From the NCBI GenBank assembly GCA_027308685.1, contig DAIDEE010000007.1, positions 62,001 to 126,000 of the forward strand: a stretch of DNA of 64,000 bases, written 5' to 3'. The translations under genes and the position numbers were made by a program. A model generated the notes under the pieces. That model had not been told where the DNA came from. It was given only the letters and a program-made list of their open reading frames with translations, and did not search any database. Position 1 is the stretch's first letter. The number at the start of each line of letters is the position of its first letter. The DNA is from Acidocella sp. Its GTDB lineage: Bacteria; Pseudomonadota; Alphaproteobacteria; Acetobacterales; Acetobacteraceae. This document shows, piece by piece, positions 12,083 to 35,042 of the stretch.

Positions 12083-12126
12083 AATACCATCATAGGTTGT
12101 AAGTTAGGGGCTTGGAAAGAGCTTGT

Positions 12127-13541: not shown

Positions 13542-13574
13542 CGCCTAACTCCGGCTAAAGTGGAATTTAGGAAT

Positions 13575-13605: not shown

Positions 13606-13613
13606 CAGCCTGC

Positions 13614-15114: not shown

Positions 15115-15128
15115 GGTTTTTTCCTGCC

Positions 15129-15701: not shown

Positions 15702-15702
15702 A

Positions 15703-15939: not shown

Positions 15940-15983
15940 TTAATGTTCCTTTCCGAAACTTCTAAGCAAAATTATATAGTCGA

Positions 15984-16736
15984 TTAGTGCATATGCACAG
16001 CGTCGTGCAGATACAAACAGGTGAGAATGGCAAAAACATAGGCTTGCAAGCCTGCCACCAGCAACTCTAAGGCCACCAGTGCTACGTTCAGCCCCAAGGG
16101 CACCACTGATGCGAAAGCACCAAGAACGCCGAAGCTTGCGGTAAGCAGTAGCATGAACCCGGCAAAAACTTCCCACATCACGTGACCGGCGGTCATGTTG
16201 GCAAACAAACGAACCGAAAGTGAAACCGGGCGCGACAGGTAGGAAATGATCTCAATAGGCACCAGCAAAGGCAGCAACCATACCGGCACACCTTCGGGCA
16301 CGAAGAATTTGAAAAACCGGAACCCGTGGGTGTAAAACCCAACGCCGGTTGAGAACACGAACACAAATAGTGCCAGCGATAATGTGACAGCGATATGGCT
16401 CGTAAAGGCAAAGAAATATGGGAACAGCCCAAGCAAATTGCCGAGCAAAATGAAGCTGAATAACGTGAATACCAATGGGAAAAACCGCAGCCCTTCCTCG
16501 CCGATGGTATCGACACACATATTGCGCACGAATTCGTATAACAACTCGATTAAGGCTTGCAGCCGACCTGGTACGATCGCGCGCGAACGCAGGCCGAGGA
16601 CAAACAGCACCACAATAATAGCAGCGCTGGCGAGCATGGCTTCGTTGGAATTCGTGAAATTGACCGCCGCACCCAAAGGCCCAAGACCCGGTGAGAGACG
16701 AAATTGTCCAAGCGCGTCGATCGATGGGCCCGCCAT
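15984..16736 (-). CDS. atpB: ATP synthase F0 subunit a
   Basis: A 250-residue polytopic membrane protein that forms the proton half-channels beside the c ring. The key segment is SRPVSLSVRLFANMTAGHV, containing the essential Arg of helix 4, followed by the C-terminal ALELLVAGLQAYVFAILTCLYL helix with conserved Gln and polar residues. It begins 2 bp after the atpI stop and precedes atpE by 44 bp in the F0 cluster. Confidence 0.96.
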   Translation of the reverse strand: MAGPSIDALGQFRLSPGLGPLGAAVNFTNSNEAMLASAAIIVVLFVLGLRSRAIVPGRLQALIELLYEFVRNMCVDTIGEEGLRFFPLVFTLFSFILLGNLLGLFPYFFAFTSHIAVTLSLALFVFVFSTGVGFYTHGFRFFKFFVPEGVPVWLLPLLVPIEIISYLSRPVSLSVRLFANMTAGHVMWEVFAGFMLLLTASFGVLGAFASVVPLGLNVALVALELLVAGLQAYVFAILTCLYLHDAVHMH

Positions 16737-16738
16737 AG

Positions 16739-17056
16739 TCAGTCTTCCCTGTTACCCGTTTTCACCCCGGTCGCGCGAACCAAATTGCGCAACCCAGCCG
16801 CCATACCTACCGGCACCATCAGGACCATCAACCACGGTTTGGTATGAAAAAGCCGGTCCAGGCCCCACCCAATCACCACGGCGATGACCATTGCGGCCAC
16901 CAGTTCAACCCCCAGACGCATGGCGAGATTGATTGCCTTTTGCGCAGCACCGGCACCAGATTGTGCCTCGTTCGCCTTTGGCCGAGTCAATCTCGCTTTG
17001 TCTTGCGCTGCCGCCAGACGTTGCTCGAATGTGTCTTTGTCTCGACTTTCGTTCAT
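16739..17056 (-). CDS. atpI: ATP synthase-associated protein AtpI (AtpZ/AtpI family)
   Basis: A 105-residue protein with a charged N-terminus (residues 1-40) and two membrane helices (about 48-67 and 74-92, the second containing PWLMVLMVPVGMAAGLRNLVR). It opens the F0 operon and probably helps assemble the c ring or supply Mg2+. The start is taken at MNESRDKD (17056). An in-frame start at 17131 would add 25 residues with no family resemblance. Confidence 0.85.
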   Translation of the reverse strand: MNESRDKDTFEQRLAAAQDKARLTRPKANEAQSGAGAAQKAINLAMRLGVELVAAMVIAVVIGWGLDRLFHTKPWLMVLMVPVGMAAGLRNLVRATGVKTGNRED

Positions 17057-17170
17057 GCACCTGTTTTCAGCGCCCTTGTAACAGACGCTGGTAATTGAGG
17101 GGTTGCTACCCATACCCCCCACCTGTGTCAAGAATGCCAGAAGATATAAAGCGATACTTAGGAATAATCC

Positions 17171-20100: not shown

Positions 20101-20638
20101 GCCGGCGGGCATGTAATCCGGTAATACCGGCGGCCTCTTCGAGTAGTGCGCGGCGCTCGTCAGGGCGAGCGTTAACCAGCGCACCAACTCGGCCCTGGCT
20201 GACCATGGCCGAAGCCCTGGAGCCGGAAGCTAGGTCCGCAAACAATGTTTGAACGTCGCGCGCCCGCGCTTCCTTACCGTTGACGCGGTACGAGCTACCC
20301 GACCCACGCTCGATTTTTCGGGAAATTTCCAGGTCGGCCGCCTCGTGGAAGGGCGGTGGCGCGAGGCCGGAGGTTTCCTCCAACGTAAGAGTGACCTCCG
20401 CGAGGTTGCGGGACGCACGCCCCGCAGTTCCGGCGAAAATAACATCTTCCATTTCGCCACCGCGCATGTTGCGCGCGTTGGCCTCTCCCATGGCCCAACG
20501 CAATGCCTCAATCACGTTGGATTTACCGCACCCGTTCGGCCCGACCACGCCAGTCAGGCCAGGCAAAATTTCCACTGTGGTTGCATCAGCGAAACTCTTG
20601 AACCCAGCAATGCGCAGGCGGGCAAAACGAGCGGGCAT
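17171..20638 (-). CDS. smc: Chromosome segregation ATPase SMC
   Basis: A 1155-residue SMC protein. The N-terminal head has Walker A (VGPNGCGKSNV) and the C-terminal head has the ABC signature (LSLLSGGEQALTALSL) and Walker B (ISVLDEVDAPLDD). Between them lie long Ala/Glu/Arg-rich coiled coils (roughly residues 165-480 and 640-970) around a hinge at about 490-620. The dimer entraps and organises chromosomal DNA with ScpA/ScpB, which are not in this window. The gene starts 2 bp after the DsbA-family gene. Its extreme Ala content creates long meaningless open frames on the opposite strand. Confidence 0.97.
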   Translation of the reverse strand: MPARFARLRIAGFKSFADATTVEILPGLTGVVGPNGCGKSNVIEALRWAMGEANARNMRGGEMEDVIFAGTAGRASRNLAEVTLTLEETSGLAPPPFHEAADLEISRKIERGSGSSYRVNGKEARARDVQTLFADLASGSRASAMVSQGRVGALVNARPDERRALLEEAAGITGLHARRHEAELKLKAAEQNLSRAEDLKGQIESRLAELKKQSRQASRYRNLSGAIRAAEAELLAIQRAVAQAAQKAAQAAFNLADAKVTEATIASTEAATYAAETEALLPQLRSTEAEARTLLERARIAQEQSAEAETRARASLTEARMRVDTLARDHAHASKLAADAETAQNRLDEEQTRLLNELVSAPALLEAAGQAEDAALEAMREAEVAANRATEDAARIAAESEAARRALGEAESRSKRAASRLAEIESEFNRLSASLIPAERVAAAEAERTAAEAALLAAREAVTVAEAERARAETALAAARTEAAAADSAATKITTEYDALAALLAQKFGREGTPILDSIAVPPGLEVALGAALREELSASAEPAAARHWRQLPPLELTVVPLKSFANLVTGPAALTRALSHILLLPEGADGDIHQGNLTAGQILVSREGAVWRWDGYTIRPGATSEAAVRLAQRNRLNALESERAITRTAAETGRAARSQAELAERNARTAEQAAREARRTAEQRFDRARSEAVRLVAEAERASAKLATVKAQYDQSSAEAAELQAILTDIQSKAAKLPDISNARAVVEAARSALTTARQAESAARRELEALRSADAARTKRLEILDRERGDWVERARDATDRLTDLTARRAEAELTAAALTDAPAVAAAARRDALDALGAAEANHRRAAEALHVAQTNADNAARQVRVAETALSNAREARAREEGNITAAKHAWGTVAERILERLGATPALPDPPADLTPDAEDKARKRWERLTREREEMGPVNLRADIEAEEAEAAIATIERERDEITSAIAKLRGSIGHLNREGRERLSAVFTEVDKHFQTLFSRMFGGGKAHLALVGSDDPLEAGLEIYAQPPGKKLATLSLLSGGEQALTALSLIFAVFKCNPAPISVLDEVDAPLDDANVERFCTLLEDMVRETGTRFLVVTHHHLTMARMDRLYGVTMQERGISRLLSVDLARAVDMVEPAGHAMAAE

Positions 20639-20640
20639 GA

Positions 20641-21252
20641 TTATCCTTTCGCGGCAGCGGCAACCGTTGAGACAAACTCATCATACTCCATGGCACCGGT
20701 ATGAAGCGTGCCGTTAATGAGGAAGCTGGGCGTCGCGTTAATGTGGTACATTTTCTCGGCTTCCTGCTGCCCTTGCAGGATGAAGCTTTTCAGTTTGTCG
20801 TCGGCTAGAGCGGCGTCGAAAATAGCTTGGTCCATTCCCGCCAGCGCTGCGTATTTATAGATTGCTTTTTTGTAGTCGATGCCGGGGGTAAAGGCCCAGT
20901 CGCTCTGGCTGGCAAAAAGTGTCTCGATAAATGGGTAATATTCCTCGGCTGGCAGGTAGCGGGAAACCTGGGCCGCCATCAGCGCCACCCCATCCAGGGG
21001 GAAGTCCTTATAGATGATTTGAAGTTTACCGGTATCGACCAAGTCGGGCTTAACTTTGGGCATGACCGTCGTGCCGAAATAAGCGCAATGGGTGCAGGTG
21101 AGTGAAAAATACTCAATAGCCGTCACAGGCGCCTTGGGCGAACCGACTGAGCGCTGACTAAATGGATCAACAGCAGTTCCGGCAGCAAAAGCTGACGGCG
21201 ATAAAACGGAAGCACCCACAAGGGATAGTATTGAACGGCGAGATATCTGCAT
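20641..21252 (-). CDS. DsbA-family thiol-disulfide oxidoreductase, exported
   Basis: A 203-residue thioredoxin-fold protein with a signal peptide (SRRSILSLVGASVLSPSAFA, twin-arginine-like) and the redox motif Cys53-Thr-His-Cys56 in YFSLTCTHCAYF. The long helical insertion and the C-terminal cis-Pro region (HINATPSFLINGTLHTGAM) match the Thioredoxin_4/DsbA group. It oxidises or isomerises disulfides in periplasmic proteins. The start at 21252 has AGAGGA about 7 bases upstream; the in-frame start at 21333 adds 27 unrelated residues. Lying between dciA and smc is a conserved alphaproteobacterial arrangement. Confidence 0.9.
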   Translation of the reverse strand: MQISRRSILSLVGASVLSPSAFAAGTAVDPFSQRSVGSPKAPVTAIEYFSLTCTHCAYFGTTVMPKVKPDLVDTGKLQIIYKDFPLDGVALMAAQVSRYLPAEEYYPFIETLFASQSDWAFTPGIDYKKAIYKYAALAGMDQAIFDAALADDKLKSFILQGQQEAEKMYHINATPSFLINGTLHTGAMEYDEFVSTVAAAAKG

Positions 21253-21307
21253 AATTTCCTCTATATGTAGTTTAGTCAAAAATCGGGGGAAGAGTCGAAT
21301 CGTAAGT

Positions 21308-21775
21308 TCAGCCCTTTCGGGTGATGCCCTCATATAATTTTGCCAGAGCCTCGCCCAAAGGGCCGTCGGGCAGGTTTTGGGGCGGGGTTAGGGCGATGTT
21401 CGAGGGCTTTTTGGCGGCGGCGGCGCGGGTGCCCGGGGTTTGCTGCACAAAGCGCAGGCGTTCCACCATCTTCTGGCCAACCCCAAGGTTCAATCGGCTG
21501 ATCAGGGCCGCTCCGCCATACTGCAACTCCATTGCCACCGGTCCGCTGCAAGCCAGGGTGAGCGTACCCCCGGCAAATTTTAGGGGGGTAGCGCGGGCGC
21601 AAAATTCCGGGCCGGCGAGACTATCCCAATCAGCCAGCAACTGCGCCGCCGCTGGGGCGCGTTTGCGAAAGGCCGGACGGACGATGGGCGCAATGAGGGC
21701 GGCAATACCGCGTGCCGCAAAGTTGCGCGGCGGCGGCTCCAGGGGCACATCCTGTTTGCGTGACGCTTTTACCAT
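21308..21775 (-). CDS. dciA: DciA-like protein (DUF721)
   Basis: A roughly 155-residue protein whose first half carries the DUF721 core: LADWDSLAGPEFCARATPLKF, then GGTLTLACSGPVAMELQYGG. DciA-type proteins load or recruit the replicative helicase DnaB in bacteria that lack DnaC. The C-terminal part is Ala/Pro-rich and probably disordered. The start is uncertain: the ATG at 21775 would overlap the divergent mutY start by 16 bp, while a GTG at 21748 would not. It precedes the DsbA-like gene and smc on the same strand. Confidence 0.78.
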   Translation of the reverse strand: MVKASRKQDVPLEPPPRNFAARGIAALIAPIVRPAFRKRAPAAAQLLADWDSLAGPEFCARATPLKFAGGTLTLACSGPVAMELQYGGAALISRLNLGVGQKMVERLRFVQQTPGTRAAAAKKPSNIALTPPQNLPDGPLGEALAKLYEGITRKG

Positions 21776-22767
21776 CCGCCAAAAAACTCCTGTCCTGGTA
21801 TGCCAGCCACCGGCGGCACTTGCCCTGGCGTTCTGCGCCCGGCGCGACAGCAAATCCATATCATGTCTGGCTCTCCGAGATCATGTTGCAGCAAACCGTG
21901 GTTGCCACCGTAATTCCCTATTACGCCAAATTTCTGGCGGCGTATCCGGCGATTGCTGATTTAGCCGCCGCCCCGGTGGATGAGGTGCTGGGGATGTGGG
22001 CAGGGCTTGGTTACTACGCCCGCGCCCGCAACCTGCATGCCTGCGCCAAGCAAGTGGCAGCATTAGGCGGCTTTCCTGACACTATTGAAGGCTTACGGGC
22101 GTTGCCTGGCATTGGCCCTTATACCGCCAACGCCATCGGTGCCATTGCTTTCAACCTGCCAGTGTTGCCGGTGGATGGTAATATTGAACGTGTCGCGGCA
22201 CGGATATTCGCCATTACCGCGCCGATTCCTGCTGCCAAGCCCGTTATTGCTCAGGCGGCGGCGCGGTTCATACAAGATAAAGCCGCGCGTAAGGCCCCGG
22301 GTGATTTCGCCCAGGCATTGTTTGACCTAGGCGCAACGATCTGCACGCCGCGCAGTCCTTCGTGCATAAATTGCGCGTGGCGTGCCGCCTGCCAGGCATA
22401 TGCGCAAGGCATTGCCGCCACTTTGCCTGCCCGCACCAAAAAACCCGCGCGTCCGCGCCGTGAGGGGGCGGCCTACGTATTGCTGGACAGAACAGGTAAC
22501 GTGTTGCTGATCCGCCGGCCGCCCTCCGGCTTGCTTGGCGGTATGCTGGCCCTACCCGAGTCGCCCCCGGTTGCCGCGGCATGGCGCGACGCCGGGGAGA
22601 TACAGCATATATTCACCCATTTTGCCCTGACCCTGCGGGTAAAACTGGCGGTGGTGGCGAAATTACCGCCGGGCGCATTTGCGGCACCCGCCAGAACCGC
22701 GCCATTACCTTCAGTGATGCGCAAGGCGCTTGACGCTGCGCTGAACTCAATTGACGATTGCGTATGA
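21760..22767 (+). CDS. mutY: A/G-specific adenine DNA glycosylase MutY
   Basis: A roughly 335-residue DNA repair enzyme that removes adenine mispaired with 8-oxoguanine. Visible are LSWYASHRRHLPWR, the catalytic Glu in SEIMLQQT, the helix-hairpin-helix GIGPYTANAIG, the catalytic Asp in VLPVDGNIERV, and a perfect 4Fe-4S spacing C-x6-C-x2-C-x5-C (from CTPRSPSC to WRAAC). The C-terminal third is the NUDIX-like 8-oxoG recognition domain. The most plausible start is GTG at 21760, since the conserved N-terminus begins right after it; no ATG is suitably placed. The stop overlaps the next ATG (ATGA). Confidence 0.93.
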   Translation: MTLLPSAKKLLSWYASHRRHLPWRSAPGATANPYHVWLSEIMLQQTVVATVIPYYAKFLAAYPAIADLAAAPVDEVLGMWAGLGYYARARNLHACAKQVAALGGFPDTIEGLRALPGIGPYTANAIGAIAFNLPVLPVDGNIERVAARIFAITAPIPAAKPVIAQAAARFIQDKAARKAPGDFAQALFDLGATICTPRSPSCINCAWRAACQAYAQGIAATLPARTKKPARPRREGAAYVLLDRTGNVLLIRRPPSGLLGGMLALPESPPVAAAWRDAGEIQHIFTHFALTLRVKLAVVAKLPPGAFAAPARTAPLPSVMRKALDAALNSIDDCV

Positions 22768-23786
22768 CAGAATTTTCCCCGCACGACGGTTTGCTTGCCA
22801 TCGACACCCATGTGGACATCCCCTGGCCCAACGGCCCCAGCCCGTTTGAGGATGGCCCGCGCTGCGTGGATTTGCCCAAGCTGAAAGCCGGCAATATCGC
22901 CGCCGTATGTTTTGCCGCCTATATTCCGCAAGGACCGCGTGACGCCGGCGGGCATGAACAAGCGGCGTTGCGCGTGCGGGCGATGCTGGATGCCATCGCA
23001 GCGATTGCCCCTGAGGATGGCGCCGGTGGCGTGCTGACCAGCACGGCGGGTGCTATCGAGGCAGCTTTTGCGGCGGGTAAAATTGGCGTCATCCCCGCCA
23101 TTGAAAACGGCTACGCGATGGGCGAGGATTTGGCCGCCCTGGATGAGTTTGCAGCCCGTGGCGTGCGCTACATGACACTCACGCACAACGGCCATAACGC
23201 CCTGGCCGATGCCGCCATTCCGCTGGCCAGCTTAGGCAACGCCGCTACCGAGCATGGAGGGCTTTCAGAACTTGGCCGCGCGGCGGTGGCACGGATGAAC
23301 CAGTTGGGCATTTTGGTGGATATCTCGCACGCCGCCAAATCCACCATGCTGCAGGCGGCAGCACTCTCGCGCACGCCAATTCTGGCCACCCATTCCTGCA
23401 TCCGCTCACTTTGTGACCACCCCCGCAACCTTGATGATGAGCAATTGGAAGTGCTGGGTGCCACCGGCGGGCTGGTACAGATCACCATCGTCTCAAATTT
23501 TTTGCGCCCCAAAGCCCGCGCCAGTGATTTAACGGTGGCCGATATTGCCGACCATGTGGATTACGCCGTGAAAAAAATCGGCATCGACCATGTTGGTATT
23601 GGCACGGACTTCGACGGCGGCGGCGGCGTGCGGGGCTTCATGAACGCCGCGCAGGCGCCGAATTTAACCAAGGAATTGTTCAAGCGCGGGTACAGCCGGG
23701 AGGCTTTGGGCAAAATTTGGGGCGGCAATTTTTTGCGGTTGTTACGGGCAGCGGAGCGAGTTGCCCATGTTGCCCAAGCTGTATAA
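22764..23786 (+). CDS. Membrane dipeptidase family (M19) peptidase
   Basis: A 340-residue zinc dipeptidase of the renal dipeptidase family. Metal and substrate motifs are IDTHVDIPW (H-x-D), the bridging Glu in IPAIENGYAMG, THNGHN, VDISHAAKSTMLQAA, ILATHSCIRSL, and IDHVGIGTDFDGGGG. It cleaves dipeptides, including D-amino-acid-containing or beta-lactam-like ones. No signal peptide is visible, so it is probably cytoplasmic. The ATG at 22764 overlaps the mutY stop (ATGA), indicating coupling to mutY; a TTG two codons upstream is less likely. Confidence 0.93.
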   Translation: MTEFSPHDGLLAIDTHVDIPWPNGPSPFEDGPRCVDLPKLKAGNIAAVCFAAYIPQGPRDAGGHEQAALRVRAMLDAIAAIAPEDGAGGVLTSTAGAIEAAFAAGKIGVIPAIENGYAMGEDLAALDEFAARGVRYMTLTHNGHNALADAAIPLASLGNAATEHGGLSELGRAAVARMNQLGILVDISHAAKSTMLQAAALSRTPILATHSCIRSLCDHPRNLDDEQLEVLGATGGLVQITIVSNFLRPKARASDLTVADIADHVDYAVKKIGIDHVGIGTDFDGGGGVRGFMNAAQAPNLTKELFKRGYSREALGKIWGGNFLRLLRAAERVAHVAQAV

Positions 23787-23831
23787 TGCGATGTTATCAG
23801 CCAATATGAAACAAATATCGAAAGACCTTAC

Positions 23832-24608
23832 ATGACCTCGAATTTTGATAATGCGGCGTCGCTTTACCTTGATTTACTAAAAAAATCCTTGACCATGACG
23901 CTTTATAGCGATGAGCCAGACACGGACGACAAAAACCAAGGCCGTTTTTTACAGGATTTCATTCAGCATTACATCAAGGGGGCGGCTGTTTCGATGTTGC
24001 CGTTGGCGCGGTTTGAAAATCTTCAAGCCTGTATTGCCGATGTGTTGGAGACCAAAGTGCCGGGTGACTTTATTGAGACTGGCGTTTGGCGGGGTGGCGC
24101 GACAATTTTCATGCGGGCGATGCTAAAAGCCTATGGAATAAATGACCGGACTGTATGGGTTGCTGATTCTTTTGAAGGCTTGCCTGAGCCTGACGCTGAG
24201 AAGTTTCCGGTTGAATTTAAAGCCCACCAAAGCGCTGTTATGACAAAGGTTCATAAACATTTTGCCTCGGGTATTGATGAGGTGAAGTTGAATTTCCAAG
24301 CCTATGGCATGTTGGACGAACAAGTAAAATTCCTCAAGGGGTGGTTTAAGGATACTTTGCCGGCGGCGCCTATCGAGCGTTTGGCGATTATGCGCCTGGA
24401 TGGTGATTATTATGAGTCAACCATGGATGGGTTGAAGAATCTCTATTCCAAGTTATCGGTTGGTGGTTATGCCATAATTGACGATTACGGCGAGGATATG
24501 TGGACTTATTGCCGTAAGGCCGTTGATGATTTCCGGCGGGAAAACGGCATTACAGAGCCGTTGATCACGGTTGATTCCAAATGTTCATATTGGAAAAAAG
24601 CTGGGTGA
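23832..24608 (+). CDS. TylF/macrocin O-methyltransferase-like protein
   Basis: A 258-residue SAM-dependent O-methyltransferase of the TylF group. Characteristic blocks are GDFIETGVWRGGATIFMRA (SAM loop), VWVADSFEGLPEPD, RLDGDYYESTMDGLKNLY with the metal-binding acidic residues, and GGYAIIDDYGEDMW. Relatives methylate sugar hydroxyls in macrolides and in bacterial surface glycans. It meets the AT-rich glycan-type unit tail to tail (1 bp gap), so a sugar O-methylation role is plausible but inferred. Confidence 0.85.
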   Translation: MTSNFDNAASLYLDLLKKSLTMTLYSDEPDTDDKNQGRFLQDFIQHYIKGAAVSMLPLARFENLQACIADVLETKVPGDFIETGVWRGGATIFMRAMLKAYGINDRTVWVADSFEGLPEPDAEKFPVEFKAHQSAVMTKVHKHFASGIDEVKLNFQAYGMLDEQVKFLKGWFKDTLPAAPIERLAIMRLDGDYYESTMDGLKNLYSKLSVGGYAIIDDYGEDMWTYCRKAVDDFRRENGITEPLITVDSKCSYWKKAG

Positions 24609-24609
24609 T

Positions 24610-27198
24610 TCAGGGCTGGCCATTCATATCTTCGCTCGGATACCCTCCACGCGGACTATGTTCCAGAATAGAAAATATGGGGCGTAAAATAGCCATCTCA
24701 TAGGCAGTGCCTTCTGGAGTGCTTGAGTGGCTTAGGTGGTAGTAGTCATAACCCGCCGGCATGGGAGCGTGAACATAGATTAGCTGATCTGTGTTGCTAA
24801 ATGGCACAGGTACTGGCCGCGTGTCGATCATAATCAGGTATGATCGATCGTTCAGTAAGTGATTTTGAGCACTCAAGATCAGCCGGTTAAGGTCGATGTC
24901 TCTCGTAATTATGTGATAATATATTCTTGTTTCATGATCGGCCAATGCGCGCCAGTTTTGAATGGCATTAGCAAGATGGTTATGAAATTCTTGCAATGAG
25001 GATTCATCCCAGTCGGAGCGTCGAGCCAGAAAAAATGTAGCTCCTGATGGCTTATGTTCAATAATTTTACCGCCAACCGCTACAGTATTTGTCTCGAACT
25101 GTGCTTTGTCGACAAAAATATCAAAATCAGAATCTATGGCATTGATGGTGGCATCCTGAAGAAAGTCGCAAAAATCAAAAGGTATGGTGTTAGAAAAATT
25201 TTGTCGCTCGTTTCGTAAACCCCATCGACCAAGGATAATTGATGGCATGGTATTTTGTCCGAGTGGAATAATTTTTATATCTGAATCGTACAATTGTGCT
25301 TGATACAACAAGGCTTCATTTAAACGGAAGAAAACATTATCAAGTATCGATTCACCAACAAGTTGCTTAGCAGTGGTATCTGAGTGTGTTATCAAATTAA
25401 GAGCAGCTTCAAGATAAGAATGTTTGTTCAAAAAATTCAGAGCAGTTGCAAATAATTCTGGTTTTTGAGTGAAAATTTGCCAGTATAGAAAAATATAATC
25501 AAGCGCTTGTTTCCACAAGCCAGATTCGTAACGTGCAATCAAGGCAAGATGAATGACGATCCAACTAATAGGGTCGGCGGCGGGAGGAACAACAATACAA
25601 AAATGTACTGCCCGACTTATAGCTTCATTCCAGTGTGCGCTATAAGCGGCGACTTCTACCGACAATAAAAGAAGCTCTTTATTTCTAAAGTCGAGCACAG
25701 AATTGTTTATAAAAAAATTATTGGCGGCGTCATTGCCGTATTTAGTTCGGATTAGAGAAACATACTCAAGAGTCAAAATCTCGTCGCGTTCAAAACGCTT
25801 CATATATACGGCTAGAATGGACTCGAGTCCGGCGGTATCGCCGTTTTTACGAGATTCGTTCAGGGCAAGCATAAACGAATCACGTTGCTTGGTCTCAAAG
25901 CCTATAGCAGCCTCGGCACTTAATGGAATTTTCAATATCGAAATGATTTTCGACATAAAAGTCATTTCCCATTGAAAACCGTCATTTTTGCTGTAGCATG
26001 AAATTCCATCCCAAATAAAATCAGGGGGATAAGGTGCATGAACATAGCTCACTCTTGGCCGATTAGGGTATTTGGTTGGTGTTTTAAGTACGTCTATGAT
26101 CAATAAATGCGAGTCATCATCAAGCAGGCAGCGTTCAGCGATATCAATTATTGCTGCTAAATCTCCGGCACCACAAAACGAAAATATATACAACTTACGC
26201 TTCCCGAGAATCCGTCCATTCTGCCAGTTCTCGATGCGTCTTGAAATACGGTCGAAAAAGTGAGACTGCTTTTGATCGTCAAAAAAACTTGCCCGATCAT
26301 GAAAAAATGTTGCTCCAGTTTGAATATGTCGAGGCATATTGCAGCGACCAAAGCCTTTAACAAATTCAAAATTTTGCTGTTTTCTAAATTCAACGAAATT
26401 ATTTTCGATCGATTCTCCGGCTGTGTTATTATAAAACATAGCACGGTCCATCAGAGTTAAATCACTGGTATGGGCGCGTGAACCCCTTAAGCCCCAAGGA
26501 CCGCCGACTAGATAGGGCATGCAGTTTTGCCCGATTCCAAATACGCGAGTACCAGTTGCCTCAACCAAATCATGAACTTGTAAAGCCAAATTCGTCCTAA
26601 GAGTTAAATTACTGCGGCTTTCAGCCGATAATTTTGCCCAAGCTTGAGGCTTTGATTGGCTCAGTAATTCTTTAACTTTATTGTTCAAAAACAATTTCGC
26701 GTAGTAGTGAATACCTACTGGAAGTATTTCTGGATAGGTGGTGAAGTTGTTCCAATTTTCATCGAGAACAAATTCCAAATTATCAAACAACCCAATCTCC
26801 CAAAGCAAATCTATTTCAATCACTAAGCTCTGCCATGCTTCTGGGTAATCAGGAGGCGGAAAGGTTTCGCGGAACGCCCGGCCACGCCGAATAGCGTTCA
26901 TATGTTCTTTCATGCTGTCGGCAACAAAGGCCGCGTGCAGGGTCCAGGCTTTATTGATATGAAAGTCTTTGGGATTACTTTTTGCAGCATGTCCCAATAT
27001 TTCATCCGCGTCATATGGCCGATTTAACTTCATTAAACCGTTGGCGTATTCCCATGCTACACGAGTGTCATTAGGAAATTTTTCAATCAATCGTTGAAAT
27101 TTTTCAATGCTGTCTTCATAATCACCATCTTCCCGCAAGTCGATGGCTTCAGTTAGCAGTTCATTATAGTCAGTAGTTACGTCTGTCGTACCAGTCAT
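24610..27198 (-). CDS. TPR-like protein with a duplicated DUF1796-like domain
   Basis: An 862-residue protein. Residues 1 to about 140 look like TPR helices. A domain of about 200 residues occurs twice, near 219-425 and 648-850. Shared landmarks are GQNCMP / GQNTMP, G-x-WGLR, GATFF-x-x-R, an IENW/IQNW helix, a LL-x-D-x-S-x-L-x-x-ID strand and YVHAPYP / YVHAPMP. This pattern resembles DUF1796, a putative papain-like cysteine peptidase family; the nucleophile-position Cys is Thr in the second copy, so that copy may be inactive. Residues 430-640 are helical repeats. Family assignment is tentative. It overlaps the FkbH gene stop-start by 4 bp and is AT-rich. Confidence 0.55.
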   Translation of the reverse strand: MTGTTDVTTDYNELLTEAIDLREDGDYEDSIEKFQRLIEKFPNDTRVAWEYANGLMKLNRPYDADEILGHAAKSNPKDFHINKAWTLHAAFVADSMKEHMNAIRRGRAFRETFPPPDYPEAWQSLVIEIDLLWEIGLFDNLEFVLDENWNNFTTYPEILPVGIHYYAKLFLNNKVKELLSQSKPQAWAKLSAESRSNLTLRTNLALQVHDLVEATGTRVFGIGQNCMPYLVGGPWGLRGSRAHTSDLTLMDRAMFYNNTAGESIENNFVEFRKQQNFEFVKGFGRCNMPRHIQTGATFFHDRASFFDDQKQSHFFDRISRRIENWQNGRILGKRKLYIFSFCGAGDLAAIIDIAERCLLDDDSHLLIIDVLKTPTKYPNRPRVSYVHAPYPPDFIWDGISCYSKNDGFQWEMTFMSKIISILKIPLSAEAAIGFETKQRDSFMLALNESRKNGDTAGLESILAVYMKRFERDEILTLEYVSLIRTKYGNDAANNFFINNSVLDFRNKELLLLSVEVAAYSAHWNEAISRAVHFCIVVPPAADPISWIVIHLALIARYESGLWKQALDYIFLYWQIFTQKPELFATALNFLNKHSYLEAALNLITHSDTTAKQLVGESILDNVFFRLNEALLYQAQLYDSDIKIIPLGQNTMPSIILGRWGLRNERQNFSNTIPFDFCDFLQDATINAIDSDFDIFVDKAQFETNTVAVGGKIIEHKPSGATFFLARRSDWDESSLQEFHNHLANAIQNWRALADHETRIYYHIITRDIDLNRLILSAQNHLLNDRSYLIMIDTRPVPVPFSNTDQLIYVHAPMPAGYDYYHLSHSSTPEGTAYEMAILRPIFSILEHSPRGGYPSEDMNGQP

Positions 27199-28967
27199 AC
27201 TGCTTCAATTGCTATGAGGTCTATCAAATCATCAACAGGTTGCTCGACCGCCCGTCGCCATGTCTTTGCATGAACAATTTCAACGAAGCCAAGCCGCGGA
27301 TACAAATCAGCGACAACTCCGTTTTTTGTTGTTGGCTCATACACGCCGGCGATGCTCGAAAGTCCGAGCGCCTTAGCCTCTACGATCAATGCGCGCAGCA
27401 TAAATTGCTCAAGCGTACGGGAGAACACACGGCAACTCATCAACCAGCTTTCAATGACCAAACTATCGCCATCGATCACGCCGATGAGGCTCGCAACCAA
27501 GCCATGATCGCCAAATTTGTCAGCCAGGGTGGCACCGAGCACAATGGCATCAGGCCGTGCCGCGAACGCTTGAATCGCGGCATCATTGTAGCGCCTCGTG
27601 GTAAGGTTGAACTGGTTGGTTTTACCCTCAAGTTGGGCAATGCGCGCCAGTGCGGCGCCCTCGGCCCTGAATATTTTGCCTTTCATATCAAGACTGGCAA
27701 GAAAGCTCGGCAGGTCGGTGGCATCACCCTGTGCCGCCGCCGCTTCAGCCCGTGCCTGATAGGCCTGGCCGCGGGCGAGGTCTTCGGGGCTTAGCCCCTG
27801 GCTGGCAAACCAGTAACCCTCATCCAGCTTTGCGATAAAAGCCGCCGGGTCTTCACCTAGTTCAATGACTGTGATTTCCGGCAATTCAGCCCGTACCAAG
27901 GCACATTCAGCCGGGTTGTCATCAACAAACACAAAGGAATCGATACCAAGATTAAGCTGGCTGGCAATGCGCCTCAACCCGCCGGCTTTATCTGTCCAGG
28001 CACATTCAAAGGCGGCAAAGTCGCTGCGTTTTAGCACTGCGTGCGGATGTGTGAAGCCTGCCGCAGCAATTTCGGGAGCGTTTTTACTGCATACGGCCAG
28101 CACAACCCCACGGGCAGCGAGGGCACGAATATAGGTTTGAAACGCCCTGAAGGCTTCACCCTTGGGCGTGTCTGGCCCTAATTGTAGTCCATCAACCCCG
28201 TCATCGCCAATCACGCCACCCCATAGAGTGTTATCAAGATCAACGGCGAGGAGTTTTTTACTGCGGCCAGTGGCTTGCCGCAAAGCGGCGCGAAACCGCA
28301 CGCAATACTCAGGGATGTCCTTTTGCGAAAATGGCAGCTTGGCTGCAAACCAGGCGGAGGCATCCTCAGCCAGACCCTCGGTATCGAGAAAAATAATATC
28401 CGGCCCCGCTTCAAGCATTTTAGTACGCAAGGCGTGGATTTGCGCCAGTGGACTGGCGGGCGCTCGTAATTCCGCAATCGCGCTAAAGCGGGAGGTGGGT
28501 AGAGTCGGCAGGTGGTGAATAATTCGCCGGTCAGGAGCGGTTTTTCGCAAACCATCCCAAAAACTCCGGCAGGCAGCCATTTTTGCATCGAGGATTTTCG
28601 CAACATCCTCAGCCGGCGTGGAGAGCGCGATGTCGGCTACCCAGTCGCGCCAGGTTGTTGCCACCACAACCAGATGAGGGGCAAATTTATGCAGCCCCGA
28701 TCCGGCATCGAGGGCCTCCTGCTGCCAAGCGCCAAACGGGGCCTGATATGTAACCGGCGCCAAACCCTCCAAGGCTGCGCCTACGGCACAAGCGCGCGCT
28801 ATCAGGTCGGTGGTAACCGCACCGGCCAAAGCAATTTTGTAGGTGCCATGTTTGGCGGCTAACAGCCGTGTGCCATGAACAAAAATATCAACTGGCTTTG
28901 GTGTGATAATTGGCCCGAGGGCGGCACGAACGAGATTCATTGTTTCGAGGCCGTCCATATCGGTCAT
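27195..28967 (-). CDS. FkbH-like protein (HAD-IIIC phosphatase + GNAT-like domain)
   Basis: A 590-residue protein with an N-terminal SGNH-like region (about 1-220), a HAD domain with the nucleophile motif DLDNTLWGG near residue 243 and FVDDNPAECALVR, and a C-terminal GNAT-like acyltransferase domain (about 415-565, LEGKTNQFNLTTRRY, IESWLMSCRVFSRTLEQFML). FkbH proteins load a three-carbon unit from 1,3-bisphosphoglycerate onto an acyl carrier protein as glyceryl-ACP. The ACP gene sits directly upstream, overlapping by 1 bp (TAATG), so the two surely act together. Unlike its AT-rich neighbours, this gene has typical GC-rich composition. Confidence 0.88.
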   Translation of the reverse strand: MTDMDGLETMNLVRAALGPIITPKPVDIFVHGTRLLAAKHGTYKIALAGAVTTDLIARACAVGAALEGLAPVTYQAPFGAWQQEALDAGSGLHKFAPHLVVVATTWRDWVADIALSTPAEDVAKILDAKMAACRSFWDGLRKTAPDRRIIHHLPTLPTSRFSAIAELRAPASPLAQIHALRTKMLEAGPDIIFLDTEGLAEDASAWFAAKLPFSQKDIPEYCVRFRAALRQATGRSKKLLAVDLDNTLWGGVIGDDGVDGLQLGPDTPKGEAFRAFQTYIRALAARGVVLAVCSKNAPEIAAAGFTHPHAVLKRSDFAAFECAWTDKAGGLRRIASQLNLGIDSFVFVDDNPAECALVRAELPEITVIELGEDPAAFIAKLDEGYWFASQGLSPEDLARGQAYQARAEAAAAQGDATDLPSFLASLDMKGKIFRAEGAALARIAQLEGKTNQFNLTTRRYNDAAIQAFAARPDAIVLGATLADKFGDHGLVASLIGVIDGDSLVIESWLMSCRVFSRTLEQFMLRALIVEAKALGLSSIAGVYEPTTKNGVVADLYPRLGFVEIVHAKTWRRAVEQPVDDLIDLIAIEAV

Positions 28968-29221
28968 TATATTTTGCTCACCAGCAAGGCTTCGAGGTCT
29001 GCAAAGCTTTTAATCTCTCCAATTCGGTCATAACCCAAGGATATGCTCATATCTTCTTCGGTCAGCATAAACAGAGTCAATGTGGCAATCGAGTCCCAGC
29101 CTTGCACGGTTTCCATGGTGGCCGAAGGGGCCTCCTGAAGATCAAGGTCCGGAAACGCGCTGACAAAAACACGGCTAAGGCGTTTACGGATCCGCTCGGG
29201 GGTAAGTGTGCTACCAGACAT
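28967..29221 (-). CDS. Acyl carrier protein
   Basis: An 84-residue four-helix carrier protein. The phosphopantetheine site is Ser44 in GWDSIATLTLF, matching the DSL/DSI motif of carrier proteins, and helices III-IV (YDRIGEIKSFADLEALLV) follow. It is the likely partner of the FkbH protein encoded 1 bp into its stop codon. It is not the housekeeping fatty-acid ACP, which would carry DSLD and sit near fab genes. Confidence 0.88.
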   Translation of the reverse strand: MSGSTLTPERIRKRLSRVFVSAFPDLDLQEAPSATMETVQGWDSIATLTLFMLTEEDMSISLGYDRIGEIKSFADLEALLVSKI

Positions 29222-29256
29222 TCATTTTCTCCATAAATTCAGATGATTGTTGCATA

Positions 29257-30741
29257 TTAAGGCCAGTTGGGGATGATGGTCCGAAAAACAATCTGCATGG
29301 CTTCCAGCGGTTCTCCGCCTTCTGAAAAACAACCGGCTTCACCTTTTGTTTGTATGAGACCTTCTCGTCCGGCAAAGCTGCCGATGCAAACAGCTTCATA
29401 ACTCAGAGCCAATTTGCCTTTTAATCGAACTGAAAAACCAAATATCTCTCGGTGCTCGCCGCGCGAGCCTACATAGGAACCATTAGGCGCCCAGTCACTC
29501 CAGCTTCCATCTCCGAGACGTGCGCGATATTCAACCTCAAACAGATTTTCTTCCAGACAATCCAGCGAAAAACCCTGAATGGTTGTTGTTTTACTACCTG
29601 GAACCCCACAAACGAGGTGTCCCCGGCGTGTGCCGGGCACAGCGTTTGTTTCAGAGACAAAATCACCTTTGAATGAAAAATGCGCGGTCAGCTTAGCGGG
29701 CCACAAACAATCTTCCAGAGAGTCTGGGGTGAGGGGGATTCTATAATTGAATTTATCAGAAATTGCCTCAACGCTACCGCCAACGCCAAAATCATAGCGG
29801 CGCAAAAGCCCTTCGCCGGGGCAATTATACACATAATGTTCGGTGGTTGGCTTGCCGGTGCGGCAAAATGCTTCAAAACAGGCCAAATTTGAAAATGTAG
29901 ATATACTGGTTCCAATAAACGTCGGTGCACGAACAGCCATTTCAAAATCGAGGATTGAAAGTTCCAATAATGAAAGGCCGGCCAATTCTTCAGCAGAGAG
30001 AAAGTCTGATTTCCAAACCAGAAAAACCCCAAATTTCTTTAGAGTTGTTGCTCGAATTTCCTCTTTAGGGACGGGCAAATTGGCTTCGTCGCAAACAACG
30101 TATATTTGTCGTCCCACAACGTCGAGCGACTGTGTGGTTTTGAGCATAATGTCATAGAACGTAAGAGCGTAATCATTCCGTTTTTCCGGATAGTGTTCGC
30201 CATAAACTTTTGCAACGTCGAGCCAATCTTTCTCGATCCTGAGTTGGCTGACGACTGATATTTTACTCTGGGCGTAAACAGCCTTTGTGAGCTTCTTGAA
30301 AACATCAGTTTGAGTTACATGAGGCTCTAAATTGCGAAAAAACTGGCAGGTGAATTCATCGAGCCCGCCAGCACCTTTTAAGGCACGCCAGCCTAAGGTA
30401 CTGGTACCTGCAATAAAGGAGTGCCAGCCGTTCTCAGTCTCGATGGGAGGTTGGTCCAGAATTGTCACCCCAAAAGCCTCAGCGAAATTTTTCAGCTTTT
30501 CAACGGAATAAATTTTTGAGAACTCGATTTTTTGATGAGTTCCGTTGGTGGCGTCAAAACTGGCCATATTGGGTAAGACGACATCCCGATGTTGCAGGTA
30601 AGCTTTTTCAAAAAGCGCGTACAAAGCATATTTTTGATTGTTCAGCCCGAGTCCAAGTTCAGGGTACCCTAGGGGAGAGTTGTCTGCCGACGTCTCAAAT
30701 TGGTCAGAATCGCCATCCAAAATCGCCATTTGCCCCTGCAT
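29257..30741 (-). CDS. O-fucosyltransferase-like protein with C-terminal ChW-like repeats
   Basis: A 494-residue protein not closely matching a characterised enzyme. The N-terminal GLGLNNQKYALYALFEKAYL followed by RDVVLP, and later LDFEMAVRAPTFIGTSISTF, resemble the start and the nucleotide-sugar-binding end of GDP-fucose O-fucosyltransferase folds. Residues about 400-442 (EVEYRARLGDGSWSDWAPNG ... GFSVRLKG) look like a ChW (hydrophobic, conserved Trp) repeat, and 446-487 (YEAVCIGSFAG ... PLEAMQIVF) like a second. ChW repeats are mainly known from Gram-positive extracellular proteins. No signal peptide is seen. It sits 35 bp upstream of the ACP-FkbH pair. Function is inferred only. Confidence 0.55.
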   Translation of the reverse strand: MQGQMAILDGDSDQFETSADNSPLGYPELGLGLNNQKYALYALFEKAYLQHRDVVLPNMASFDATNGTHQKIEFSKIYSVEKLKNFAEAFGVTILDQPPIETENGWHSFIAGTSTLGWRALKGAGGLDEFTCQFFRNLEPHVTQTDVFKKLTKAVYAQSKISVVSQLRIEKDWLDVAKVYGEHYPEKRNDYALTFYDIMLKTTQSLDVVGRQIYVVCDEANLPVPKEEIRATTLKKFGVFLVWKSDFLSAEELAGLSLLELSILDFEMAVRAPTFIGTSISTFSNLACFEAFCRTGKPTTEHYVYNCPGEGLLRRYDFGVGGSVEAISDKFNYRIPLTPDSLEDCLWPAKLTAHFSFKGDFVSETNAVPGTRRGHLVCGVPGSKTTTIQGFSLDCLEENLFEVEYRARLGDGSWSDWAPNGSYVGSRGEHREIFGFSVRLKGKLALSYEAVCIGSFAGREGLIQTKGEAGCFSEGGEPLEAMQIVFRTIIPNWP

Positions 30742-30811
30742 GATATCAAAATCGAATATATTGCGGATAGCATTAGCAGGGGGCTGTTTCCAGGGGGTTA
30801 GGCTTTATGTA

Positions 30812-31210
30812 TCACCCCGCCGCGAAGGTCCGTGGCCTACCCTCGGCATCAATAGCCACAAACGTAAACACCGCGCGTGTCACCCGGTATTCTTCCTCGG
30901 TGATCCGCGCCCGCCGCCAGGCTTCAACGTTGATCTTCATGGACGTGCGGCCCTGTGAGAGTAATTCACAGTAAACGCTCACCTCATCGCCGATTTTCAC
31001 CGGGCGCAGGAAATTCATTGCATCCGCGGAAACGGTCACGCATCGGCCGTGTGACACCCGAGACGCCAGGTTGCCGGCCGCCAGATCCATCTGGCTCATC
31101 AACCAGCCGCCGAAAATATCGCCATTGGCGTTGGAATCGGCGGGCATGGCGATGGTGCGGATCATCGGGATGCCGGCCGGCGGGTGTTCCGCCGGCGTGA
31201 GAGGCGTCAT
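30812..31210 (-). CDS. Acyl-CoA thioesterase (YciA-like hotdog)
   Basis: A 132-residue hotdog-fold acyl-CoA thioesterase. The motif MPADSNANGDIFGGWLMSQMDLAAG, with the conserved NxxGDIFGGWLMSxMD block and catalytic Asp, identifies the YciA/BACH group. It hydrolyses a range of short to long acyl-CoAs in the cytoplasm. It lies 2 bp downstream of trxA and is probably cotranscribed with it. Confidence 0.92.
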   Translation of the reverse strand: MTPLTPAEHPPAGIPMIRTIAMPADSNANGDIFGGWLMSQMDLAAGNLASRVSHGRCVTVSADAMNFLRPVKIGDEVSVYCELLSQGRTSMKINVEAWRRARITEEEYRVTRAVFTFVAIDAEGRPRTFAAG

Positions 31211-31212
31211 GC

Positions 31213-31530
31213 TTACAGGCTTTTCTCGATCCAGGCTTTTAGGGCACTTTTTGGGGCAGCGCCTACCTGGGTGGCGGCTGGTTTGCCGTCCTTGAAGATG
31301 ATCAGCGTGGGGATGCCGCGGACACCAAACTGGCTGGGGGTGAGGGGGTTTTCGTCGATGTTTACCTTCACAATATCGAGTTTGCCAGCGTATTCAGTCC
31401 CCAGTTCTTCGAGGGAAGGCGCAATGGCACGGCAGGGGCCGCACCATTCGGCCCAAAAATCCACCAGTACCGGGCCGGAGGATTTGAGTACGTCAACAGC
31501 GAATGTTTCGTCGGTTACAGGTTTGCTCAT
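31213..31530 (-). CDS. trxA: Thioredoxin
   Basis: A 105-residue classical thioredoxin with the redox pair Cys30-Gly-Pro-Cys33 in [16 protein letters not shown], and the cis-Pro loop [12 protein letters not shown]. It reduces cytoplasmic disulfides using thioredoxin reductase. It follows addA after a 53-bp gap, an order conserved in alphaproteobacteria. Confidence 0.97.
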
Positions 31531-31583
31531 GATAAGGTCCTAAAATTGCGTTGCCGTGAACATGGCGGGAATGGTTGCGTTGA

Positions 31584-34500
31584 TCAAGCGCTTCGGCTGG
31601 TTTCAGATGGCTGCGCATTCCCCGGCGCATGGCGGGCCAAAAGAGCGGCGGAGACTGGCATGACAACCGCGTTCTCGGTCCATATCAACAGGCACGAAAT
31701 ATGTTTTGCGGGAAAAATTTGGCCTAAAACCGCTTGGTAGGCGGCCAATTGGCGCAAATACGCGGGTGGAATGGCGTCTGGACCCTTGGGCGGGAGGCGG
31801 TCGGTTTTATAGTCGGCAATCAAAATGGCAGTGTCACTTATGACCAACCGGTCCACCAATCCGCCGATTTCGACATCGCCTAAAACGCCAGCGAGAGGAA
31901 CCTCCGCCTTAGAGCCAGGGCCAAATAAAGGCGCAAGATCAGGCTGTTGCAGAATATTCAGCACTGAATCGAGCACTTGGCTCTGCAACGTAGCGCTCAA
32001 CCCCGCGCCTGGCTGGGCGAGATATTTCCGGCCCGCCTCGGGTCGCTCGGATGCTGTAATGTCAGGTAAATGTTGCAGGAGTGCATGGACACACCGGCCT
32101 CTTGCCAGCGCAGTCGTTCGGGCTTCACGTGCCGCCAGCAAGCCATCGCCCAAGGGAGAGGCTGCTGTAGCCCGCTTCGCCGGGTCTTCAGTATTTCGGC
32201 TCGGTGCCAGGGGTTCGGGCCTTGTGGTCTCGGCACTCGGTGGCACCGCTCGCCAATCGGGCGCAGCCCCGGTCCAAGGGGGCAATTTTGTTTTTGTGCT
32301 ACCCTCGCGCACTTCAGCGCGGTCAGGCCTCGCGGTTTGTGGGACTATATAAGCGTGCACCCCAGCAGCATCGGGCGGAGCCCCCATGGCCAAAAAAGCT
32401 GATTTCACAAAATTGTACCAACAACCGGCCACCGGGGTTTGTCGGCCTTCAGCGCCGCAGACGATCAACTCATCTTCGGCGCGCGTGAGCGCTACATAAA
32501 GCAGCCTGTTGTATTCAGCTAATTGACTGACCTTATTTTCAGTTGCCGCCGTGGTAACAGCTTCTGAGCGTAATTCGGTACGCGGACAAAAGATGGGTAC
32601 GGCGATATTCTGTTGTGGCACGGGCAGGCGGAACAAAGTCTCTCGTGGTTTGGGGACGGTTGTGGTGTCTGGCAAAATTACGATCGGGGCTTGCAAGCCT
32701 TTTGCCCCATGAATGGTCATAATGCGCACCATATCTCCGCCGGCTTCGGCCTCACGTTTAATTGAAGCCCCGGATTGCCGAAGTGAGGCGACAAAATGCT
32801 GCAACGAAGCCGGATTGTTGCGCGAATGCGCCTGGGCTTCAGCCAGCATCTCATCGATCGGCTCAGCAGCTTCCGGACCCAGCCGTTGCAACAGTTTGGC
32901 TCGCCCGCCAAGTGGCCCCAGTGCTTCTGACAACAAAGCATAGGGTGAAATATAATCAACCTGCTGCAGTAATGTTTGGAAAAATCCTACCGCCGCCGCC
33001 CAGTCGGGTCGTTCAATCCGGCGGGCAAATAATGCTGCCACCAAGCTGTTCTTGCGACCCAGCGCCAGAGACATGAGGCTTTCATCGGACAGTCCACCGA
33101 GCGGAGATACTAAAAATTGTCCAAACGCCAGATCATCGCGCGGTAGCAGCAGCGCATCACATAGCGCCAGCAAATCACTGACGGCTTGTTGCTCGGGTAG
33201 TACCATGCGATCGAGACCGGCGATCGGAATATCGGCAGTTTTGCACGCCCGTGTAATAGCTGTGACAAGTTCATCTCGTTTTCGAACCAAAATCAGAAAA
33301 TCGCCGGGGGTCACTTTGCGATGACGGCTTGGCAAAAGTACGCCAGATGTAAGTGACGTTTTAATATGTGCCGCAATCTGGGCAGCGAGCGCGGTTTTAG
33401 CCGATTCAGCCAGGGCGTAATCATCAGGGACATCCCACGCCGCCAGCGCATCTGCCGTGGCGGGTTTGCTCAAGGGCCAAAGTGCGGCCTTACCGGCTTG
33501 GCCAATCCGGCTTACTTGGTGGTGAAGACTGCCTGGCTTGCAAACGCCTTCACAGGCTGTCCCTTGGGCGAACACCGCATCGACAAGTTTCAAAATGGGT
33601 TCTGTTGAACGAAATGAAACCGAAAGCTGGCCATCCAGCCATTGTTGCCCGGCTGATGTTACCTTGTCTCGAAATGCTTTGCGATAAGTTTGAAAACTTT
33701 CAAGATCAGCGCCTTGAAATGAGAAAATTGATTGCTTTGGATCGCCAACCGCAAAAATACTACGGTGGAGATCGCGTGCGCCTTTACCTGCGAAAAATTC
33801 TCCGGCAATCGCATCAGCAATTTGCCACTGAGCGGGTGCGGTATCCTGTACCTCATCCAAAAGTAAATGGTCGATACCCCCATCGAGCTTATATAGTATC
33901 CAGGCAATATCCTCGGGCTTTTTGAATAAATCCAGCGTGATTGTAATCAAATCAGTGTAGGCCAGCATCGCTTGCTCAGCTTTTTTGGCGCCATCAACTT
34001 GCAGGATCGGCGCCACGAGTGCGAGCAGGTGCGCATTGAAGGAAGCCAACCTAGCCGCGCGGCGGGCTTCCTCAATCGCTTCGATCCGCGCATGCTCAGC
34101 ATCAAGTTCCATGAACAGCGCATCGCGTTCACCAGTCAATTTTTTACCGAGGTAGCCGGTTAATACCCGCCTGGTACCCTTGCCGGTAAAATGGGCGCCG
34201 ATCCATTCTGCCCATTCAACCTGCCGCGTGCCATGATCCTGGGCCAGCCAGTTCAGGCATTCCTGCGCCCATTTTGCGCCGCTGGGATTACCTAATTCTA
34301 CGAACCGGCTGAACGCGCGGATTAAATGAGGTTCTCGCGGTAGGGTCGCGGCTTCGATGAGAATTTGCTCTTGTGTCGTATCAGGCGCATTCAAAGCCGC
34401 CCGTTGCATGGCGATAATTGCATCAAGGGTGAACTGCTGCAATAAGGAATGAATTTCATTTTCATTGGCGAACTGAGCGACCAGCGCGGCAAATTCAACC

Positions 34501-35042
34501 TCATTGGTTTCCTCAGCCAAAGCCATTATATGCTGGCGATGCGCGGGGTTTGAAAGCTCGACCTCGCGGGCCTCGCGCAGGCGACTGGCTGCATCGAAGT
34601 CATCTTCAAGTTTGAAGTGGGGAGATAATTCAGCTTCTAACGGAAACCGTCGTAATAATGATTGGCAAAATGCGTGAATAGTCCTGATATTCATTCCACC
34701 AGGCAAGTCCAGGACATCCGCAAATAATTTGCGGGCGGTGGCGCGTGATTTGGCGGTGGGGAGAACGTCAAGTTTGGTTAACTCTGAATCTAACCGCTCG
34801 TCGGATGACACGACCCACTCACCAAGCCGACGGTTTAACCTGATGGCCATTTCTGCCGCAGCGGCCTTGGTATAGGTCAGGCACAAAATTTTATCAGCCG
34901 GAGTGCCGCTCAGCATCAGTCGCAACAGCCGGTCGGTGAGCAGCTTGGTTTTGCCGCTACCAGCCGAGGCTGCAACGAAGGCAGAGACTTTTGGGTTGGA
35001 GGCGCTTAGTTGCTCCTGGTTTGCAATTTCAATTGCCGTCAT
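31584..35042 (-). CDS. addA: Double-strand break repair helicase-nuclease AddA
   Basis: A 1152-residue UvrD-type helicase with a C-terminal RecB-family nuclease. Motif I is ASAGSGKTKLLTDRLLRLML, motif II LLLDEVQDTAPAQWQ, motif V/VI region MTIHGAKGLQAPIV and RLLYVALTRAEDE; the nuclease motif is LIADYKTDR. With AddB it resects double-strand ends and loads RecA. The ATG at 35042 has AAGGAG 6 bases upstream and overlaps the addB stop by 14 bp. In-frame starts further upstream (to 35156) lie inside addB and are not supported. Confidence 0.95.
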   Translation of the reverse strand: MTAIEIANQEQLSASNPKVSAFVAASAGSGKTKLLTDRLLRLMLSGTPADKILCLTYTKAAAAEMAIRLNRRLGEWVVSSDERLDSELTKLDVLPTAKSRATARKLFADVLDLPGGMNIRTIHAFCQSLLRRFPLEAELSPHFKLEDDFDAASRLREAREVELSNPAHRQHIMALAEETNEVEFAALVAQFANENEIHSLLQQFTLDAIIAMQRAALNAPDTTQEQILIEAATLPREPHLIRAFSRFVELGNPSGAKWAQECLNWLAQDHGTRQVEWAEWIGAHFTGKGTRRVLTGYLGKKLTGERDALFMELDAEHARIEAIEEARRAARLASFNAHLLALVAPILQVDGAKKAEQAMLAYTDLITITLDLFKKPEDIAWILYKLDGGIDHLLLDEVQDTAPAQWQIADAIAGEFFAGKGARDLHRSIFAVGDPKQSIFSFQGADLESFQTYRKAFRDKVTSAGQQWLDGQLSVSFRSTEPILKLVDAVFAQGTACEGVCKPGSLHHQVSRIGQAGKAALWPLSKPATADALAAWDVPDDYALAESAKTALAAQIAAHIKTSLTSGVLLPSRHRKVTPGDFLILVRKRDELVTAITRACKTADIPIAGLDRMVLPEQQAVSDLLALCDALLLPRDDLAFGQFLVSPLGGLSDESLMSLALGRKNSLVAALFARRIERPDWAAAVGFFQTLLQQVDYISPYALLSEALGPLGGRAKLLQRLGPEAAEPIDEMLAEAQAHSRNNPASLQHFVASLRQSGASIKREAEAGGDMVRIMTIHGAKGLQAPIVILPDTTTVPKPRETLFRLPVPQQNIAVPIFCPRTELRSEAVTTAATENKVSQLAEYNRLLYVALTRAEDELIVCGAEGRQTPVAGCWYNFVKSAFLAMGAPPDAAGVHAYIVPQTARPDRAEVREGSTKTKLPPWTGAAPDWRAVPPSAETTRPEPLAPSRNTEDPAKRATAASPLGDGLLAAREARTTALARGRCVHALLQHLPDITASERPEAGRKYLAQPGAGLSATLQSQVLDSVLNILQQPDLAPLFGPGSKAEVPLAGVLGDVEIGGLVDRLVISDTAILIADYKTDRLPPKGPDAIPPAYLRQLAAYQAVLGQIFPAKHISCLLIWTENAVVMPVSAALLARHAPGNAQPSETSRSA

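Follow-up and report, generated by a model that had tools for sequence, protein, structure and literature searches.

A variable gene islet of Acidocella that pairs an acyl carrier protein and FkbH with a candidate DUF1796-like acyltransferase

The DNA analysed here (the window) is a stretch of 64,000 nucleotides from Acidocella sp. (assembly GCA_027308685.1, contig DAIDEE010000007.1, positions 62,001 to 126,000). It carries an islet of five genes: those for an O-fucosyltransferase-like (O-FucT) protein, a discrete acyl carrier protein (ACP), an FkbH and a TPR protein with two DUF1796-like domains lie on one strand, and a TylF-type O-methyltransferase gene converges on them (Table 1). The open reading frame coordinates confirmed the tight spacing described in a first-pass annotation of this DNA, with a 35-bp gap between the O-FucT and ACP genes (29221/29257), a 1-bp overlap between ACP and FkbH (28967), and a 4-bp overlap between FkbH and the TPR protein (27195-27198). 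The abutting TylF gene was likewise verified, its stop codon lying 1 bp from that of the TPR gene. The islet is real and variable, and its core is an acyl-loading pair together with a probable new type of acyltransferase. We give nearly an even chance to the reading that it modifies a glycan, in which FkbH would form a three-carbon acyl-ACP (probably glyceryl-ACP) and the DUF1796-like protein would pass the acyl group to the glycan.

Table 1 Features of the islet in window positions. The islet ends include the final codons of both flanking genes.
Feature	Position	Strand	Details
O-fucosyltransferase-like protein, ChW-like region C-terminal	29257..30741	-	494 aa; PF10250 31.7 bits; same-site homologues in G031 and G006
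Acyl carrier protein, discrete	28967..29221	-	84 aa; GWDS, Ser44
FkbH, divergent N-terminal domain; proposed ACP loader	27195..28967	-	590 aa; TIGR01686 E 5.2e-80; FkbH_N E 0.097; tree
TPR protein with two DUF1796-like domains; proposed acyltransferase	24610..27198	-	862 aa
DUF1796-like domain 1, residues 205-440	25879..26586	-	Cys226 and His300 retained; 16-domain alignment
DUF1796-like domain 2, residues 630-862	24613..25311	-	Cys to Thr, His to Leu; 16-domain alignment
TylF-type O-methyltransferase, convergent to the four-gene run	23832..24608	+	PF05711 286.5 bits; homologue in G582
Islet, stretch missing from same-genus genome G010	23757..30829	.	Flanks: M19 dipeptidase gene, yciA-type thioesterase gene

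The assignment of FkbH was firm (269 bits against the curated TIGR01686 cut-off of 146.65), with a weak match of its N-terminus to FkbH_N (PF21211; 13.0 bits, cut-off 27). TylF was also assigned firmly (cut-off 23), and a homologue with 67% identity lies 102 bp from FkbH in another genome (G582). The window ACP gave no match to Pfam, including PF00550, at E<=1, and the ACP of G706, a genome of another genus, scored 13.1 bits with PF00550, below the cut-off of 20.8. The window ACP has about the class length of 80 amino acids (aa) and carries its serine in a DS motif; it matched a profile of neighbouring ACPs at E 1.5e-31, the window ACP itself being one of the ten seeds. The putative glycosyltransferase with ChW-like repeats proposed earlier held in its first part, O-FucT passing its cut-off of 31.5 bits marginally and a paralogue in the same genome scoring 57.6 bits; the ChW repeats (PF07538) fell just under the cut-off of 22, with 18.2 bits for the whole protein and 21.5 bits for its C-terminal part. 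For DUF1796 (PF08795), the Pfam cut-off of 23 was not reached by domain 2 (13.5 bits, E 0.063), and domain 1 gave no match. Profile-profile comparison of the window domain with DUF1796, made as a single pair, gave a probability of 94.8 and E 5.6e-8 over 146 columns, which supports a remote relationship.

The site of the islet varies within the genus. In G010, window positions 20001-23756 and 30830-36000 aligned to places 49 bp apart with collinear flanks (81% and 73% identity), and these 49 bp correspond to the 7.07-kb window stretch with all five genes. We infer that the islet was inserted in the window lineage rather than lost in G010. In G006, the contig opens with 99 bp of the M19 gene that match window 23645-23743, and O-FucT is the sole gene before yciA; in G031, O-FucT at the same site has a ChW-like/GSCFA protein after it, beyond which the contig ends. 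Both O-FucT homologues are 56-57% identical to that of the window. Furthermore, the guanine-plus-cytosine (GC) contents of the TPR protein (41.6%), TylF (46.3%), O-FucT (46.7%), ACP (50.2%) and FkbH (55.7%) genes are unequal, those of six neighbouring genes being 54.8-62.2%; the earlier statement that the flanking members, but not FkbH, are AT-rich was correct. The differing states of the site support stepwise assembly of the islet as a mosaic, and the mosaic origin suggested earlier is thereby supported by context, not by assay.

The same genome has a second glycan cluster (L051; G000:C14:60001-80000, positions 9687-17839) with a ChW-like/GSCFA protein, an O-FucT/ChW paralogue (33% identity) and a second TylF (43% identity). 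The O-FucT/ChW query matched 31 of the 37 genus genomes searched, mostly through its C-terminal ChW-like region, and loci L012-L036 of the genus encode a protein of about 300 aa with the same C-terminal region.

Among 299 genomes of the family, FkbH was found at E<=1e-60 in 75 genomes, at 81 places; 63 of these places together with L049, L053 and L054 gave 66 FkbH loci, some cut by contig ends. At 62 of them, an ACP is found no more than 5 kb from FkbH. The combination of ACP, FkbH and a DUF1796-like protein recurred in two other genomes, G004 and G706 (loci L049 and L111). In G004, which belongs to the genus of the window and whose FkbH is 59% identical, 4-bp overlaps join ACP to FkbH and FkbH to the next gene, and the TPR/DUF1796-like protein is fused to a GT61 glycosyltransferase (94 bits). 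In G706, a TPR/DUF1796-like gene converges on ACP and FkbH from a distance of 94 bp. None of the 65 further FkbH loci retrieved gave an O-FucT match (tblastn, E<=1e-4). Because O-FucT is found near no other FkbH and stands alone in G006, the four genes do not form one fixed unit as had been thought.

The window-type DUF1796-like domain is present in 13 of the 299 genomes, and the 13 loci studied were the window, L049, L111 and L173-L182, four further listed places being left out. FkbH and ACP occur at three of these loci. At four others (L176, L177, L179 and L182), without FkbH, the DUF1796-like gene, a remote homologue, adjoins an ACP and an AMP-binding ligase; the genomes are G644, G609, G536 and G456, the ligase being assigned by Pfam in three and through 70% identity in G609. 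Two DUF1796-like genes stand in tandem at L176 and L177. The exchange of the loader around a constant pair of ACP and DUF1796-like protein is the best evidence that the latter acts on acyl-ACP. At L177 (G609), two GSCFA-like matches (28-29% identity) were seen at 12066-14634, near the DUF1796-like/ligase/ACP run.

Residues were compared across 16 aligned domains: both domains of the window, those of G004 and G706, and 12 more taken from the fetched loci. A Cys after the first strand and a later His were each present in 15 of the 16, and window domain 2, with Thr and Leu, was the single exception for both. Since Cys and His are kept in domain 1 and lost only in domain 2, domain 1 is the likely catalytic one as judged from sequence. 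No mention of DUF1796 was found in the literature searched.

Four partner classes were distinguished at the 66 FkbH loci: MBOAT acyltransferases (16), SLGxNC (20), WcbI (8) and DUF1796-like (3). At least one of the last three occurred at 28 loci, and MBOAT together with any of them at none. Fisher's exact test of this exclusivity gave p 2.8e-5, for a grouping chosen after the loci had been seen and uncorrected for relatedness. In the FkbH tree, which was midpoint-rooted and for which the long branch of L054 is a hazard, the window fell within a group of 15 rows (100/100) with no MBOAT among them. The nearest rows are L101, with WcbI, and L049, with the DUF1796-like protein, indicating that the partner class varies between close relatives. 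The first-pass annotation held that the setting of ACP and FkbH is that of glycans, not of polyketides, and this is supported by context, not by assay: several homologous loci neighbour glycosyltransferases, WcbI and MBOAT, and the nine genes checked around the islet, at 17-38 kb of the window, were of housekeeping types, with no polyketide genes. WcbI-type capsule proteins stand near ACP and FkbH at L101, L102, L103, L109, L110, L112, L152 and L159, with paired neighbouring matches at five of these.

The SLGxNC proteins (motif FESLGxNCEFGxVQR) share an invariant Cys and His in all thirteen aligned members; the two scanned matched no Pfam family over its cut-off. Compared with the window domain as a single pair, their profile gave a probability of 84.8 and E 6.6e-6. 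With this profile, which was seeded from FkbH loci, SLGxNC was found in 80 of the 299 genomes, namely 47 of the 75 with FkbH and 33 of the other 224. Among the 150 SLGxNC places listed, 29 have an FkbH place no farther than 5 kb away, where about 0.34 would be expected for an assumed 4.5-Mb genome; conversely, 25 of the 81 FkbH places have SLGxNC within 5 kb among the matches listed. ACP-FkbH is thus repeatedly accompanied by related Cys-His proteins, and not always by unrelated neighbours.

One frame of 921 aa (L146, 4184-6949, minus strand) has two SLGxNC domains, which parallels the doubled window domain. At the SLGxNC loci L115, L116, L117 and L119, very large frames follow the ACP (e.g. 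L116, 3366-7976), of 1534-1552 aa, that of L115 being clipped by the contig end at 1025 aa.

Several known systems resemble parts of the islet. AlmE-AlmF-AlmG, which transfers glycine to lipid A, likewise combines a loader, a carrier protein and a transferase to decorate a surface glycolipid, although loader, acyl group and transferase all differ. In tetromadurin synthesis, FkbH and ACP are proposed to give glyceryl-ACP (PMC7489565). Such polyketide units, which form glyceryl-ACP or methoxymalonyl-ACP and serve tetronates among others, share the discrete ACP and the FkbH-like loader with the islet, whereas the islet has no polyketide synthase and no dehydrogenases of the methoxymalonyl route, and a TPR/DUF1796-like protein comes next. 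For Campylobacter jejuni flagellin, excerpts report that di-O-methylglyceroyl pseudaminic acid requires Cj1295 (PMC3068675), and that strain 12664, one of two described without the di-O-methylglyceroyl group, has the fkbH-domain gene cj1302 as a pseudogene only (PMC7099621). This locus also places an FkbH-domain gene in a glycan locus, with a three-carbon acyl group on a sugar and O-methylation; unlike the islet, it has no DUF1796-like protein mentioned in these excerpts, and its acyl group is on an amino group. WcbI (PF18588), from capsule clusters, has a published structure in which Cys14 binds coenzyme A (CoA) with His201 near, and a partner, as yet unknown, was proposed for it (PMC4104973). 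WcbI is comparable in its glycan setting, in its Cys and His, which lie at the thiol of CoA, and in its recurrence near ACP-FkbH in this family; its profile has no detectable similarity to the window domain (probability 0.2).

A course of events can be proposed from these comparisons, in the following presumed order. FkbH would take a phosphorylated three-carbon acid (1,3-bisphosphoglycerate by family precedent) and load the adjacent ACP to give glyceryl-S-ACP. Domain 1 would accept the acyl group, probably via Cys226 assisted by His300, and hand it to a sugar on a glycan or glycoprotein of the surface. Domain 2, having lost Cys and His, would act as a pseudo-enzyme to bind a partner or hold it in position. 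The same glycan would receive a sugar from the O-FucT/ChW protein, with the sugar or the glycerate as possible targets of O-methylation by TylF. The general idea of the first-pass annotation, a three-carbon acyl group placed on a surface glycan or protein, is therefore plausible by context, with acyl group, transferase role and acceptor as proposed rather than observed parts. More broadly, it is possible, at somewhat below an even chance, that the DUF1796-like and SLGxNC proteins of Acetobacteraceae form a new class of carrier-protein-dependent Cys-His acyltransferases decorating surface glycans. Their loaders would be exchangeable (FkbH for a three-carbon acid, AMP-ligase for other acids), they would replace the MBOAT or WcbI of sister loci, and the window protein would add a pseudo-enzyme domain.

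The DUF1796-like protein might instead be a cysteine peptidase or a non-catalytic scaffold of TPR binding and degenerate domains, with another enzyme elsewhere in the genome moving the acyl group. We regard this as unlikely. In its favour, Pfam labels DUF1796 a putative papain-like cysteine peptidase, and Cys and His are gone from domain 2; in addition, none of 14 canonical DUF1796 loci of the class had an ACP, FkbH, MBOAT, WcbI or ligase match in the stretches read, and 6 of the 13 DUF1796-like loci had no ACP match (L173 adjoins a glycosyltransferase, L174 a TylF-family protein, and at L180 the adjacent glycosyltransferase match is weak and falls short of the cut-off). Yet the repeated adjacency to ACP and two different acyl-loading enzymes, and the separation of MBOAT from the Cys-type proteins, speak against it, and an acyltransferase fits the neighbourhood evidence better than the peptidase-like domain suggested earlier. 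Because of the canonical loci, the proposal is confined to the acetobacterial branch; at L101, a single gene that passes the DUF1796 cut-off stands 5.2 kb away from FkbH. Quite improbable, in our estimate, is that the partner genes travel as passengers in variable glycan islands and were brought together by island hot spots, not by one pathway. The variable genus site and the unequal GC contents would suit such passengers, but the core recurs in G004 and even in a second genus (G706), its reading frames overlap both in the window and in G004, and the DUF1796-like/ligase/ACP runs occur in four genomes. That FkbH makes another acyl-ACP, such as lactyl-ACP, for a small secreted metabolite seems very improbable. 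The substrate of FkbH is not readable from sequence, and such enzymes are best known in secondary metabolism (PMC7489565); however, the ketosynthase family is represented in the whole genome by one full-length frame (420 aa, contig C47) and four short matches, none on the contig of the window, and the glycan-related neighbours of homologous loci also oppose it.

Further results weigh against the acyltransferase reading, together with the canonical and ACP-less loci. Predicted structures of the DUF1796-like protein were not confident (predicted local distance difference test 72.9 when the TPR part was included and 58.8 for the isolated domain), and fold searches gave nothing clear. The profiles used for locus partners were seeded from these same loci. 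Neither partner class was present at 22 of the 66 FkbH loci, a TylF-like match lay within 5 kb at only four, and three label changes explain MBOAT on the FkbH tree, the exclusivity being partly that of one lineage. In G706, the DUF1796-like gene sits on the opposite strand. Of the 150 SLGxNC places listed, 121 are away from FkbH, and SLGxNC compared directly with canonical DUF1796 gave a probability of 2.2 (E 0.022); these proteins are accordingly tied in solely through the window-type domain. WcbI, for its part, showed no acetyltransferase activity despite binding CoA (PMC4104973).

Bacterial glycans are known to carry glyceryl and methylglyceryl groups, but the enzyme transferring this acyl group off the carrier protein is, to our knowledge, mostly unassigned. 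The neighbour pattern provides candidates for such ACP-dependent transferases in the DUF1796-like, SLGxNC and WcbI proteins. Furthermore, the presence of WcbI near ACP and FkbH suggests that acyl-ACP may be the partner that was proposed for WcbI (PMC4104973).

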